The notes under the pieces were generated by a model. That model worked only from the letters and a program-made list of their open reading frames with translations, did not search any database and was not told where the DNA came from. 64,000 bases of DNA, from NCBI GenBank assembly GCA_012031265.1, contig JAAUTY010000009.1:1-64000 (forward strand). Reading direction: 5' to 3'. Below, piece after piece: positions 446 through 5,427 of this stretch. The position numbers and the translations under genes are program-made. Every line of letters begins with the position of its first letter. The first letter of the stretch is position 1. The stretch comes from Spirulinaceae cyanobacterium SM2_1_0 (lineage in GTDB: Bacteria; Cyanobacteriota; Cyanobacteriia; Cyanobacteriales; Spirulinaceae).

Positions 446-1246
446 TCATTCAGTGCCAAACCGCCGCTGCAAATCGTCAGCATCGAGATCCAGGAGGGTC
501 GCGACCTGTTCGACTGACATCCCCGTTGCCAGCAGTCGCTCCGCGCCGTTGTATAGGTTTTCAATCGCTTGCTGGCGTTCTACCTCAGCGCGCTCTCGCC
601 TCGCCTGCTCTTCTCGACGACTCGCTTCAGCTTCCGTCAGACTCTCGACGGCTTCGCTGTAGCTCGGAAGCTTTTGCCCTGTATCTGGTTTGTAGAAGCG
701 CAATTGCCCAGCGTCGAGTCTTAGCTCCAGGTTGAGAACCTCAGAGTGGATGGCAATGGCACCGCTGCCGTTGCCACCAGCGGGCATCGGTTCGTATTCC
801 CTGGCGGTCAGACGCAAGCCGATCAGCGGTGGCTCAAGGTAGTCGCCGGTTGGGTCGTACTGAAAATATTCGGTGACGCCCAGGTCAGCGTAGATCCGAC
901 GTTTCTCAACGCTATCGGTGTGGCGTGTTGAGGCTGACGTGATTTCAATAATGAAGTCTGGCGTCAAGCCGTTTTCTTCCCAGACCTTGTAGCTTCTACG
1001 CTGGCGATTTTCTGCTCCCAGGACAACGTACACATCGGGCGAGACGACGGCATCTTTTACCCCTTGCTGGTAGTAGACAAACGAGTTGCCCGAAACATAG
1101 ACAGCGGGGTGCTCCGCAAAATGCAGCTCTAGCGCCTCAACGGCATACGTCAAGCCCTTCCGAGTGGGATCGCTTTCGGCCATGGGGGTGCCATCAGAGT
1201 CTGGATATTCAATCTCGGTGGTGGGACTGATCGGGGTGAGTGTCAT
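446..1246 (-). CDS. Uma2 family (DUF820) putative endonuclease
   Basis: The protein has 266 residues and the Uma2/DUF820 fold, a PD-(D/E)XK nuclease superfamily member that is greatly expanded in cyanobacteria. The likely catalytic residues are the Asp of VSPDVYVV (about residue 71), the Glu of PDFIIEIT (about 100) and the Lys of SVEKRRIYADLGV. The core ends near residue 180. It is followed by a charged coiled coil (EAEASRREEQARRERAEVERQ) and a short helical tail that ends in LDLDADDLQRRFG. That tail is common in these proteins and resembles the last segment of Rpn/PD-(D/E)XK transposase-like proteins. Its stop lies 23 bases from the start of nothing else on this strand, so it may be transcribed alone or with the chemoreceptor upstream. 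In vivo function is unknown. Confidence 0.85.
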   Translation of the reverse strand: MTLTPISPTTEIEYPDSDGTPMAESDPTRKGLTYAVEALELHFAEHPAVYVSGNSFVYYQQGVKDAVVSPDVYVVLGAENRQRRSYKVWEENGLTPDFIIEITSASTRHTDSVEKRRIYADLGVTEYFQYDPTGDYLEPPLIGLRLTAREYEPMPAGGNGSGAIAIHSEVLNLELRLDAGQLRFYKPDTGQKLPSYSEAVESLTEAEASRREEQARRERAEVERQQAIENLYNGAERLLATGMSVEQVATLLDLDADDLQRRFGTE

Positions 1247-1269: not shown

Positions 1270-4200
1270 TTAGTTCACCTTGAACTGGCGGACGACCTCC
1301 TGAAGTTGTTGGGCGGTGGCGAGGGAGTTTTGGAAGGAGTTGGACAGCTCCGCTGATCCCTCGGAGGTGCTCTGCGAGATCGCCGCCACCTCGTTCATGG
1401 TCTGGGTGACCGAATCGGATTGGGTGAGTTGGGCGGTGGTGGCGTTGGCGATCGCCTCCACCAGTTCACTGATCTGGGCGGTGGCGAGGGCGATCGCGTT
1501 CAAGCTCTCGCGGGTTTCTTCCACCAGATTCGTCCCAGCGCTGACCTGGGCGATCGCTGCCTCGGTGACGGCGATCGCGTCGCCGGTCTGGGTGCGAATC
1601 TCGGCGACCAAGTTGGAAATCTCCAGCGTCGCACTGGCCGACTGGCGGGCGAGCGATCGCACCTCATCGGCCACCACCGCGAAGCCCTTGCCGTATTCGC
1701 CGGCGCGCGTCGCCTCGATCGCCGCATTCAGCGAGAGCAACTGCGTCTGGGTTGCGAAGTCGCTAATCAGTTTGACGACGCGGTCGATCTTTTGTGACGA
1801 CTCGCTCAGCTCGCGGATCTTCTGGCTGGTTTCCGCCACCGTGTCACGGATGGCGAGGATGCTCTCCACCGTGCGGTTCATCGCGGCGTCACCGGACTGC
1901 ACCGTGCGGTTGGCATTTTGTACCGCGCCCTCGATCGCCTCGGCATTGGCACTCACCGCCTGCGTCGAAGTCGCCATCATTTGCACTTCTTCCAGTGCCT
2001 TGTTCAGTTCCGCCGCCTGCCGTTGCGCTTGCGCCGCCAGTTGGCTCACGGCGACTTCGCTGCTGCCGGAGGTTTCCGCCACCTTCGTCGTCGCTGACTG
2101 CACCTGGAGCACGATGCCGCGCAGACTTTGCAGCGTGTTGTTGTACACGTCGGCGATCGTGCCCAGCTCGTCGTCAGAGATCGGCGCGCGCACGGTCAGG
2201 TTGCCTTCTAGCGCCGGACGCACGGCCGTCAGCAGGTCGATGGCGCGGCGCTGGAGCAGTTCGCGGGCGGCTTTTTCGCGGGTTGCTAGTTCCGAGAGCT
2301 GTTGGGCTTGCGATCGCAATTGTTCCAAATCCTCCGCCCGTTGCAGCGCGATCCCCAACTGCGTGCCCAGTTGCACCATCAACTGCACTTCGGCGTCATC
2401 CCACTGACGCGGCTCGGAGCATTGATAGTTCGCCAGCAATCCCCAGAGTTGGTCGCCGAGGAAGATCGGCACGGTCACGTAGGCGCGGGCTTCAAACGCT
2501 TCCAGCAGCCCCACGTAGCATTCCGGGAAGCCGGAATCGTAGATGTCATTGCAGACCCGCGCCTTGTCACCCTGGCGGTAGCTGCCGCCTTGGGTGCGTT
2601 GCAGATAGGTATCCTGAGCACCCAACTGGCGCATCTGCATTTGTTTGATCGTGCAGCCTTCCGTGTCAATATTTTCCTGCGCCTGCTCCAGCAGCTTCGG
2701 GTCTTCGCCCTGGCGGCCCAGTAGTGAGGTCCAGGGGCTGCCCACCGATTCGGCGACGAATTCGCCACTCCAATCCGGGTTGAAGCGATAGATCACCACG
2801 CGGTCGGAGTCGAACACCTTGCGCACCTCGCGGGTGGCGATGCGGAAGATCGTGTCGATGTCGGAGGATTCGCGGATCTTGTCGCTGACCAGGGCGATCG
2901 CCCGTTCCCGCTCCACCGACACTTCCAGCTTGCGCTTCTGTGCTTGTAGATTTTCCAGATCCTGCGCCCGTTGCAGCGCGATCCCCAGTTGCCCGCCGAG
3001 GTTGACAGCGAGATTGACCTCCTCCGGCTCCCAGGCCCGCGCGTCGGCGCATTGGTAGCTGGCGAGCAGGCCCCAGAGCTGGTCATTGAGGAAGATCGGC
3101 ACGGTGACATAAGCCCGCGCCTGGAAGCTGGCCAGCAGCTCCACATAGCAGTCGGGGAAACCGGCGTTGTAGACATCATCGCACTGGCGGTACTGCTCGC
3201 CTTGGCGGTAAGTGCCGCCCTGGGTACGTTGCAGGTAAGTGTCCTGAGCACCGAGCTTGCGCGTCCGCATTTGTTTGATCGTGCAGCCTTCGGTATCGAT
3301 GTTTTGGCGCGTGCCGTCGAGGATTTCCGGTTCCTCGCCCTGAGCGCCGAGCAGCGATTTCCAGCCCGCGCCCACCGATTCGGCGACGAAAACACCGCTC
3401 CAGTCAGGATTGAAGCGATAGATCACCACCCGATCGGCTTGCAGTAAGCGCCGCAGCTCCTCGGTGGCAACGCGGAAGGTGGCTTCGGTGCTCTGGGACT
3501 GCTTGATGCGATCGCTCACCAAGGCCAGGGTGCGCTCCCGCTCGACGGCGGCTTCCAGTTTGCGGGTTTGCGATTTCACCGCTTCTAAATCCTGTGCCCG
3601 TTGCAGCGCAATGCCCAACTGGCTGCCGAGGTTGACGGCGAGATTGATCTCCTCGGGCTGCCACTGGCGCGGCTGCGAGCACTGGTAGGAGGCCAGCAGG
3701 CCCCAAAGCTTGTCACCCAGGAAGATCGGCACGGTGACGTAAGCACGCGCCTGGAAGCTTTCGAGCAATTCCACGTAGCAGGGGGGGAAACCGGCGTTGT
3801 AGATGTCGTTGCAGACGCGGGCCTTGTCGCCTTGGGCATAAGTGCCGCCCTGGGTTCGTTGCAGATAGGTGTCTTTGGCACCCAGTTCGCGGGCACGCAT
3901 TTGTTTGATCGTGCAGCCCTCGGTGTCGATATTTTGGCGAGTGCCGTCGAGGATTTCCGGTTCCTCGCCCTGGGCACCGAGCAGCGATTTCCAGCCCGCG
4001 CCCACCGACTCGGCCACGAACTCGCCGCTCCAGTCGGGATTGAAGCGATAGATGACCACGCGGTCGTTGCCCAGCAGTTGCCGCACTTCTTCGGTGGCGA
4101 CGCTGAAGACGGTTGCGGTGCTCTGGGATTGCTTGATCTTGTCGCTGACGACGGCGATCGCCCGTTCCCGCTCGACCGCACGCTGGAGTTTTTGGGCTTG

Positions 4201-5427
4201 CAGGCGTTGTTGGCGGAGCAAGGCGGCTTGTTGCAGCGCCACGCCGAGCTGATCAGCGATCTGGCCTAGCCAGCGCATCTCTAGCTCTTGCCACTGGCGC
4301 GGCCCGCTGCACTGGTAGCAGGCGAGCAGACCCCAGAGTTTTTCGCCCTGGTAAATGGCGGTGGTGAGATAGGCGCGAGCTTGGAAGCGCTCCAGCAGGT
4401 CGATGTAGCACTGGGGAAAATCGCGCGTGTAGATGTCATCGACGATGCGGAATTGGTCACCCTGGGCGTAGTTGCCGCCTTGGGTGCGTTCGAGGTAGCT
4501 GTCTTTGACTTCACCCAGCGCCGCGTTGTAGTTCTTGGTCTGAGCGCCGTTGACCATCAACTTGAGGTTGCAGTCTTGGGCGTTGTCTTGGATGACTTCG
4601 GGATCGACGGGGTTTTGCAGCAGCGAGATCCATTCGTCGCCGACGGCTTCGGCGATGAATTTGCCACTCCAGTCAGCGTTGAAGCGAAAGATGCCGACGC
4701 GATCCGCGCCCAACAGACGGCGGACTTCCTGAGTGGTGGTTTGGAAGATGACTTTGAGATCCAGCGATCGCCGCATCCGGTCAATCACTTGGCTCACTGC
4801 TGCTTCGCGCGCCTGCTGCTGCTGCAACTGCTCACGCACGTCGTAGTTGATCAAACTCAGGGCGAGGCGACTGGCGATTTGTTCCAGGAGGGCGATGTCT
4901 TGGGGTGACCAGGCGCGCGCCTCCTGGCACTGCTGCACGACCAATAGTCCCCAGAGGCGACCAGCCGGACGCAGACTGACGGCGAGGCTGCTGCGGACTT
5001 GGTATTGCTCAAACAGTTGCTGCTGGTAAGGGGTCAGGTCAGCTTCGCTGCTGTCGTCGATGGCGAGGCTATCGTCTTCGGCGTAGTCGGCTTGACCGTC
5101 TGCGCCAAACATCGTCGCGGGTAGGATCTGCTCCTGAGCGGGCGTCCAGCCGCGTTCGACGGATTCGGCGAGCACCGTGCCGCGATCGCCACTGGCAAAT
5201 TGGTAAATCAAGACCCGCGAGGCGGCAGTCAGGTCGCGCACCGCTTCGACCGCCGTGACCAACAGGGCGTCTAAGTCTGCGGCTTGGCTAAATTCACGGG
5301 CGATCGCGGCAATTTGCTGGCGTTGGCGCTGAAACTCCGCCTGTAGTTCGCTCAGTGCAGCCAGGTCGGCGTCATGGTTACGAGCTTTAGCCTTCGGGGA
5401 CGATTGAGCAGGTTGAGTGGCAGTCAT
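1270..5427 (-). CDS. Soluble methyl-accepting chemotaxis protein with tandem cyanobacteriochrome-like GAF domains (PixJ-like)
   Basis: This 1385-residue protein has no membrane segment. The order is: short coiled coil; a degenerate GAF (about 50-195); four bilin-type GAF domains (about 220-400, 430-610, 640-820, 850-1030); a HAMP-like linker (about 1060-1110); and an MCP signalling domain (about 1130-1385) with the conserved hairpin tip (LLSLNAAIEATRAGE...FAVVADEVRSLA). Each of the four GAFs has a Cys-Tyr at the canonical bilin-attachment position, Cys340, 550, 760 and 970, spaced exactly 210 residues apart. Each also has a second conserved Cys upstream (286, 505, 715, 925), reminiscent of two-cysteine cyanobacteriochromes. 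GAF3 and GAF4 share long identical stretches. The first GAF has no such Cys. By homology it is a cytoplasmic light receptor feeding CheA/CheW. No partner kinase is in the window. Photochemistry is inferred, not shown. Confidence 0.85.
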   Translation of the reverse strand: MTATQPAQSSPKAKARNHDADLAALSELQAEFQRQRQQIAAIAREFSQAADLDALLVTAVEAVRDLTAASRVLIYQFASGDRGTVLAESVERGWTPAQEQILPATMFGADGQADYAEDDSLAIDDSSEADLTPYQQQLFEQYQVRSSLAVSLRPAGRLWGLLVVQQCQEARAWSPQDIALLEQIASRLALSLINYDVREQLQQQQAREAAVSQVIDRMRRSLDLKVIFQTTTQEVRRLLGADRVGIFRFNADWSGKFIAEAVGDEWISLLQNPVDPEVIQDNAQDCNLKLMVNGAQTKNYNAALGEVKDSYLERTQGGNYAQGDQFRIVDDIYTRDFPQCYIDLLERFQARAYLTTAIYQGEKLWGLLACYQCSGPRQWQELEMRWLGQIADQLGVALQQAALLRQQRLQAQKLQRAVERERAIAVVSDKIKQSQSTATVFSVATEEVRQLLGNDRVVIYRFNPDWSGEFVAESVGAGWKSLLGAQGEEPEILDGTRQNIDTEGCTIKQMRARELGAKDTYLQRTQGGTYAQGDKARVCNDIYNAGFPPCYVELLESFQARAYVTVPIFLGDKLWGLLASYQCSQPRQWQPEEINLAVNLGSQLGIALQRAQDLEAVKSQTRKLEAAVERERTLALVSDRIKQSQSTEATFRVATEELRRLLQADRVVIYRFNPDWSGVFVAESVGAGWKSLLGAQGEEPEILDGTRQNIDTEGCTIKQMRTRKLGAQDTYLQRTQGGTYRQGEQYRQCDDVYNAGFPDCYVELLASFQARAYVTVPIFLNDQLWGLLASYQCADARAWEPEEVNLAVNLGGQLGIALQRAQDLENLQAQKRKLEVSVERERAIALVSDKIRESSDIDTIFRIATREVRKVFDSDRVVIYRFNPDWSGEFVAESVGSPWTSLLGRQGEDPKLLEQAQENIDTEGCTIKQMQMRQLGAQDTYLQRTQGGSYRQGDKARVCNDIYDSGFPECYVGLLEAFEARAYVTVPIFLGDQLWGLLANYQCSEPRQWDDAEVQLMVQLGTQLGIALQRAEDLEQLRSQAQQLSELATREKAARELLQRRAIDLLTAVRPALEGNLTVRAPISDDELGTIADVYNNTLQSLRGIVLQVQSATTKVAETSGSSEVAVSQLAAQAQRQAAELNKALEEVQMMATSTQAVSANAEAIEGAVQNANRTVQSGDAAMNRTVESILAIRDTVAETSQKIRELSESSQKIDRVVKLISDFATQTQLLSLNAAIEATRAGEYGKGFAVVADEVRSLARQSASATLEISNLVAEIRTQTGDAIAVTEAAIAQVSAGTNLVEETRESLNAIALATAQISELVEAIANATTAQLTQSDSVTQTMNEVAAISQSTSEGSAELSNSFQNSLATAQQLQEVVRQFKVN

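Follow-up and report, generated by a model that had tools for sequence, protein, structure and literature searches.

A predicted cyanobacteriochrome chemoreceptor of Spirulinaceae with a fixed-period array of insert-cysteine GAF domains

Known phototaxis receptors with multiple GAF domains are regarded as colour mixers. PixJ proteins are described as having one to five GAFs in series in one account (PMC13383048), and a description of PtxD (PMC5812497) reports that it is needed for the directed movement of hormogonia and that PtxD and PixJ are encoded beside the same kinds of genes (CheA, CheW and CheY). Among the sensor domains of such receptors, the insert-Cys cyanobacteriochromes carry, according to PMC5240096, a signature of three parts: an insertion-loop Cys within CXXR/K, a DTYL-type motif replacing DXCF, and the canonical Cys. 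The same source describes the insert Cys as bonded to bilin C10 in the dark state, this second bond being lost on photoconversion in three of the four characterised domains (PMC5240096). Here we examine a gene for a methyl-accepting chemotaxis protein (MCP) in a 64,000-nucleotide stretch of Spirulinaceae cyanobacterium SM2_1_0 (assembly GCA_012031265.1, contig JAAUTY010000009.1, positions 1 to 64,000; hereafter the window). Four of its GAF domains, numbered units 1 to 4, follow one another as a tandem array, and we consider it likely, on the strength of sequence comparison, that the gene encodes a cytosolic chemoreceptor of the photoreceptor type, with four violet/green insert-Cys GAFs signalling to CheA.

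The proposal of the initial annotation that the four GAFs are two-Cys, insert-type cyanobacteriochromes is well supported by motifs, tree and fold search. The full signature, with CXXK in the insertion, DTYL or DSYL, and the canonical Cys, is present in 4/4 window units (Table 1). Across all 45 array units, the canonical Cys, the insert Cys, the motif Asp and a Tyr at the position of AnPixJ Tyr302 are kept without exception, and the residue after CXX is K in 37, Q in 6 and N in 2. The nearest solved sequences are the red/green cyanobacteriochromes 6bhn (NpR6012g4), 5zoh and 3w2z (both AnPixJg2), and matches to these structures are broken at the insertion, with about 33 query residues between two aligned pieces. 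Furthermore, a single-unit model built from 104 aligned units has the GAF fold (mean predicted local distance difference test score, pLDDT, 78), and its top PDB matches in Foldseek are cyanobacteriochromes (6ob8, 6oap and 3w2z). Placing the GAFs in a cyanobacteriochrome tree, as had been suggested, groups the units with red/green and insert-Cys GAFs; in this tree, built without the four characterised insert-Cys proteins themselves, all array units lie among insert-Cys GAFs from other cyanobacteria, and the ten non-insert rows are not split off by any single branch, three of them standing amid insert-Cys rows. Cys-Tyr, used as a pointer to this sensor type, is a correlate of the insert Cys. In a survey of the relatives plus 79 loci (of 548 confirmed, 80 were kept; loci duplicating genomes already in the set, five in number, were dropped), Cys-Tyr occurs in 127/127 insert-Cys units and in 8 of the 42 units that have a canonical and no insert Cys (the others being 31 CH, 2 CF and 1 CQ, with 11 further units lacking the canonical Cys), the strength of the correlation being biased by a choice of units through likeness to CY units.

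The other defining property of the array is its period. In the translation, Cys340, Cys550, Cys760 and Cys970, each followed by Tyr, lie at an exact spacing of 210 residues, and a second Cys (286, 505, 715 and 925) precedes them by 54, 45, 45 and 45 residues, exactly as the initial annotation had stated. When the receptor is compared with itself without gaps, 380 of 655 positions are identical at an offset of 210, which is far above chance because no other offset between 150 and 259 exceeds 12% identity. Units 2-4 are mutually alignable without gaps. Unit 1 requires gaps in the insertion loop when set against them (27-31% identity ungapped, 45% gapped to unit 4), and because this loop precedes Cys340, the Cys spacing is undisturbed. 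An array with a 630-base period was not reported by Tandem Repeats Finder, which is to be expected given the program's stated period limit of 500 bases. Over the eleven array-bearing stretches of the window and its relatives, 30 of 32 intervals are 210 residues long, and the remaining two, of 420, resolve as 210 + 210 where the search pattern missed one unit; in 18 other multi-GAF proteins, the 13 intervals below 260 residues span 182-208. The segment from AESV to DTYL is 47 residues long in 35/35 non-first array units; it has seven lengths (41-53) in 10 first units and ranges over 37-61 in a further 82 insert-Cys units. When two units are modelled together with AlphaFold2 (mean pLDDT 74, predicted template modelling score 0.53), both GAFs are joined by a single 53-residue helix (190-242), and we infer that the units may stand in a fixed helical register, 210 residues being equal to 30 heptads.

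Such an exact period, together with a 32-nucleotide identical run shared by units 2 and 3, could mean that the copies arose very recently or that the assembly is at fault, and the initial annotation had indeed proposed recent tandem duplication or gene conversion. We regard an origin of this kind as scarcely credible, and the divergence of the units refutes it. The near-identity claimed for GAF3 and GAF4 stands for the protein (79% of amino acids) and fails for the DNA (77% of nucleotides, that run being the longest), these being the values of units 2 and 3, the closest pair; their synonymous divergence (dS) is 0.71, and pairs with unit 4 reach 1.15-1.21. The same codon is used at 108 of 160 identical residues in units 2 and 3 (78.9 expected at random choice), at 80 of 142 in units 2 and 4 (71.2 expected) and at 77 of 136 in a further pair (68.0 expected). 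No conversion tract was apparent between units 2 and 3, whose most-alike stretch is no more clustered than in shuffles (p = 0.30). In addition, arrays of four, five or six units occur in independently assembled relatives, and 10 of the 13 family genomes searched (that of the window included) carry the array gene. A tree of 84 units puts the first units from every species in a single clade (100/99) and the last units in a second one (99/97); the middle units are subject to turnover, and additional copies exist in the relatives G003, G006 and G010. Because first units, like last units, are orthologous from one species to another, the array is, judging by this tree, older than the sampled family members that carry it. 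Codon divergence and array age together thus rule out a recent duplication. On the other hand, units 2 and 3 of the window probably derive from a later, non-recent event in its own lineage, since they share codons above chance and unit 4 is near chance.

The tree also qualifies the idea of four units forming an equal series: units 2-4 are close paralogues and unit 1 belongs to a separate clade. The first-unit clade adjoins an MCP of Moorena (95/83). The non-first units group with a kinase on contig C47 of the same genome (97/91) and then with kinase GAFs (97/99), and 7/7 tested proteins of this sister clade are hybrid histidine kinases, two of them with an ethylene-receptor domain. One possibility, favoured by the tree, is that the array is a chimera, with unit 1 from MCP-type and the others from kinase-type insert-Cys GAFs; forcing all 45 array units together costs 5 log units, so that a single origin is unrejected (approximately unbiased test, p = 0.407).

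Records with array sequences comprise Spirulina species and a cyanobacterial metagenome-assembled genome (MAG). Four units are found in the window, G002, G005, G009, G011 and G012, five in G003 and G010, and six in G006; the array gene of G001 is divided between two contig ends. The array frame of G005 stops directly past unit 4, and in G003 the final MCP-domain part lies in a different frame (observations at L041/L154). In a sample of 386 cyanobacterial genomes, scored at the strict threshold of E 1e-28 among at most 13 candidates per genome, insert-Cys-like GAFs occur in 47; more than two per protein were seen only in the window genome and G002, and two per protein in three other genomes. 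Likewise, among the 76 non-array proteins of the Cys-Tyr survey, 70 have one insert-Cys GAF and 6 have two. The generalisation that three or more insert-Cys GAFs per protein occur only in arrays was nevertheless ruled out by an MCP of G007, which has three in non-contiguous order. As a separate observation, one insert-Cys cyanobacteriochrome (L098) comes from a contig assigned to a MAG of Tatlockia (Legionellaceae), an assignment that is probably a binning error.

What the units would perceive can be predicted from two positions, III on beta2 and X on helix 4, which PMC5240096 ties to colour. There, UG1 (Mbr3854g4) has Phe at beta2, and its change of Tyr777 to Phe is reported to give a dark state at 398 nm and a cycle nearly as before (PMC5240096). 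With the tuning columns assigned by counting from the AnPixJ alignment, both positions are Phe in 4/4 window units, and the Phe/Phe pair recurs in 38 of the 45 array units and in 35/35 non-first units. Because of this pair and the UG1 result, each unit is predicted to absorb at about 385-400 nm and about 555-560 nm, which would make one violet/green pair repeated four times. The reading of the initial annotation as a photoreceptor MCP is well supported, with the colours predicted to be alike in all units and not several. It is improbable, in our judgement, that the four insert-Cys GAFs instead have several colours and make the protein a broad-band colour sensor. PtxD (NpF2164), a seven-GAF MCP, does have six colours as described in PMC5812497, and unit 1 is the most divergent by the identities given above, with a helix-4 residue that varies in 7 of its 10 orthologues; yet the Phe/Phe pair and the same motifs are found in every window unit, and the pair is invariant in the non-first units. 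Quite improbable, too, is that only some units are active pigmented sensors and the others structural spacers with Cys kept by descent. The receptor already contains one Cys-less GAF, and degenerate GAFs occur in MCPs of G004 and G007, but 45/45 units retain both Cys, the Asp of the motif and the Tyr matching AnPixJ Tyr302, despite protein divergence of about one third and saturated synonymous sites between species, which speaks against such spacers.

With four violet/green units as the preferred reading, each of the four would bind phycocyanobilin through its canonical Cys (340, 550, 760 and 970), and in the dark the loop Cys (286, 505, 715 and 925) would add to bilin C10 to give a near-ultraviolet or violet-absorbing state. 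Light would turn the bilin to 15E and break the second bond, leaving a green-absorbing state that green light would revert. The state of each GAF could then be relayed along the continuous joining helix to the MCP tip, which would set the activity of a CheA hybrid kinase and, through it, movement driven by pili. With four to six copies of one colour, no colours would be added; a response to ultraviolet-violet versus green would instead become more likely or graded in strength. A more far-reaching version, which is on balance unlikely as a whole, is that of a homotypic array: four to six same-colour ultraviolet-violet/green switches on a rigid helix with a 210-residue period, in which the number of switched units sets the signal, so that the receptor would count light in a graded, multi-photon manner and its dynamic range would evolve through changes in unit number, the non-first units having moved in from a histidine-kinase photoreceptor and then been amplified.

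The output side of the receptor agrees with a role in chemotaxis-type signalling. Pfam finds five GAF stretches and the MCP signalling domain (PF00015, 138.7 bits against a cut-off of 34.6), and no transmembrane-like stretch was found in the whole protein, where the top 19-residue hydropathy is 1.28; the label 'soluble' fits for this reason. The array gene of G003, G006 and G010 is directly followed, in the same orientation, by a gene for a CheA hybrid of 1531-1554 residues, with Hpt, HATPase, CheW and response regulator domains (Pfam run on G003 and G010). In G003, this pair is flanked by a response regulator/DUF4388 gene ahead of the array gene and a CheW gene behind CheA; in G009, a response regulator gene adjoins the array gene and CheA is about 55 kb off. 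The earlier suggestion of a soluble MCP suited to the Che pathway is supported by the PF00015 match, the missing membrane stretch and the CheA neighbours in relatives. The window's own genome has CheA homologues on C144, which is a short contig, and at an end of C113. It also has phycobilisome genes and a PcyA match, which makes phycocyanobilin plausible as the chromophore. A second cyanobacteriochrome MCP (L049, contig C67) was observed in this genome, with a weak HAMP match below the Pfam cut-off and an MCP domain over two frames; its 7.6-kb contig also encodes a CheW-domain protein.

Several points weigh against a violet/green receptor signalling to CheA. No che gene adjoins the receptor gene in the window; its next neighbour is a Uma2 gene, 445 bases beyond which the contig ends. 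The sole PcyA match (C75:102944-103605) is spread over two overlapping frames, a split that may be a sequencing error or an assembly indel. In the single-unit model, the insertion loop that would bring the insert Cys to the bilin (unit residues 97-119) has a pLDDT below 50. Finally, the insert-Cys GAF UB1 keeps its second bond according to PMC5240096, which makes the violet/green assignment uncertain.

Table 1. Coordinates of the receptor gene, its domains, cysteine codons and neighbouring gene in the window
Feature	Position	Strand	Basis
MCP with tandem insert-Cys cyanobacteriochrome GAF array, 1385 aa	1270..5427	-	ORF, translation, Pfam
N-terminal GAF, about residues 30-195, without canonical bilin Cys	4843..5340	-	weak GAF matches; Cys167 is the sole Cys
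Bilin GAF unit 1, residues 192-401: Cys286 (insert, CNLK), DSYL, Cys340-Tyr (canonical)	4225..4854	-	
Bilin GAF unit 2, residues 402-611: Cys505 (insert, CTIK), DTYL, Cys550-Tyr (canonical)	3595..4224	-	
Bilin GAF unit 3, residues 612-821: Cys715 (insert, CTIK), DTYL, Cys760-Tyr (canonical)	2965..3594	-	
Bilin GAF unit 4, residues 822-1031: Cys925 (insert, CTIK), DTYL, Cys970-Tyr (canonical)	2335..2964	-	
Canonical Cys340 codon	4408..4410	-	
Canonical Cys550 codon	3778..3780	-	
Canonical Cys760 codon	3148..3150	-	
Canonical Cys970 codon	2518..2520	-	
Insert Cys286 codon	4570..4572	-	
Insert Cys505 codon	3913..3915	-	
Insert Cys715 codon	3283..3285	-	
Insert Cys925 codon	2653..2655	-	
MCP signalling domain, residues 1196-1350	1378..1842	-	PF00015
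Uma2-family gene, directly after receptor gene, at CheA's place in three relatives	446-1246	-	Pfam

A family-wide receptor in which a single two-Cys sensor recurs four to six times, with repeated units unchanged in length, makes it testable whether copy number is a setting of sensitivity, and by what path a light signal passes through serial GAFs to the end of the MCP. Such arrays are also a natural source of four- to six-fold switches of predicted violet/green type. No paper describing several insert-Cys GAFs in a row on a single MCP was found in the literature by title or abstract opening, subscription papers being mostly outside that scope, and this is weak evidence of novelty.

Compared with the characterised insert-Cys cyanobacteriochromes Mbr3854g4/UG1, Mbl3738g2/UG2, NpF2164g3/VO1 and NpR1597g2/UB1, the window units have the same CXXR/K, DTYL-type motif and canonical Cys and belong to the same red/green-GAF clade. 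Their insert-to-motif distances, 15 and about 24 residues, lie within the range set by the 14 of UG2 and 26 of UG1 according to the residue numbers of PMC5240096. The helix-4 position is Tyr or Leu in the characterised domains and Phe in the window units, and the former are reported as single domains, whereas the window protein has four in succession. PtxD (NpF2164 of Nostoc punctiforme) and PixJ/TaxD1 of Synechocystis likewise fuse cyanobacteriochrome GAFs to an MCP, and cheA-type genes also adjoin the array gene in three relatives of the window genome. However, the seven GAFs of PtxD are of mixed type, with six colours (PMC5812497), whereas the window protein is homotypic, and PixJ1, with transmembrane segments and a single pigmented GAF, differs from the soluble window protein. 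Among UirS and ethylene-receptor-like kinases, the comparison falls on the kinase of contig C47 (L048:2908-5877), whose GAF is the most like the array units, 68% identical to unit 2. Its order is ETR1_N-PAS-GAF-HisKA-HATPase-RR (RR, response regulator), with a single insert-Cys GAF and a histidine kinase output in place of an MCP; domain order suggests homology to UirS and a UirS-like, insert-Cys sensor. The closest comparison within the family is with the MCPs of G004 and G007 (L162 and L163), members without the array that are 44% identical over about 1350-1400 residues and, like the array MCP in three relatives, have a CheA homologue as the next large open reading frame. Three insert-Cys GAFs occur in the G007 protein and two in the G004 protein, which has a further one whose insert Cys is lost (Ser), but these units are non-contiguous, with a Cys-less GAF between them, CILR/K-type loops and no 210-residue period. 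What is known, then, is the sensor type, an insert-Cys cyanobacteriochrome on an MCP; what appears new is a homotypic, fixed-period array of variable unit number that has been kept through a family.

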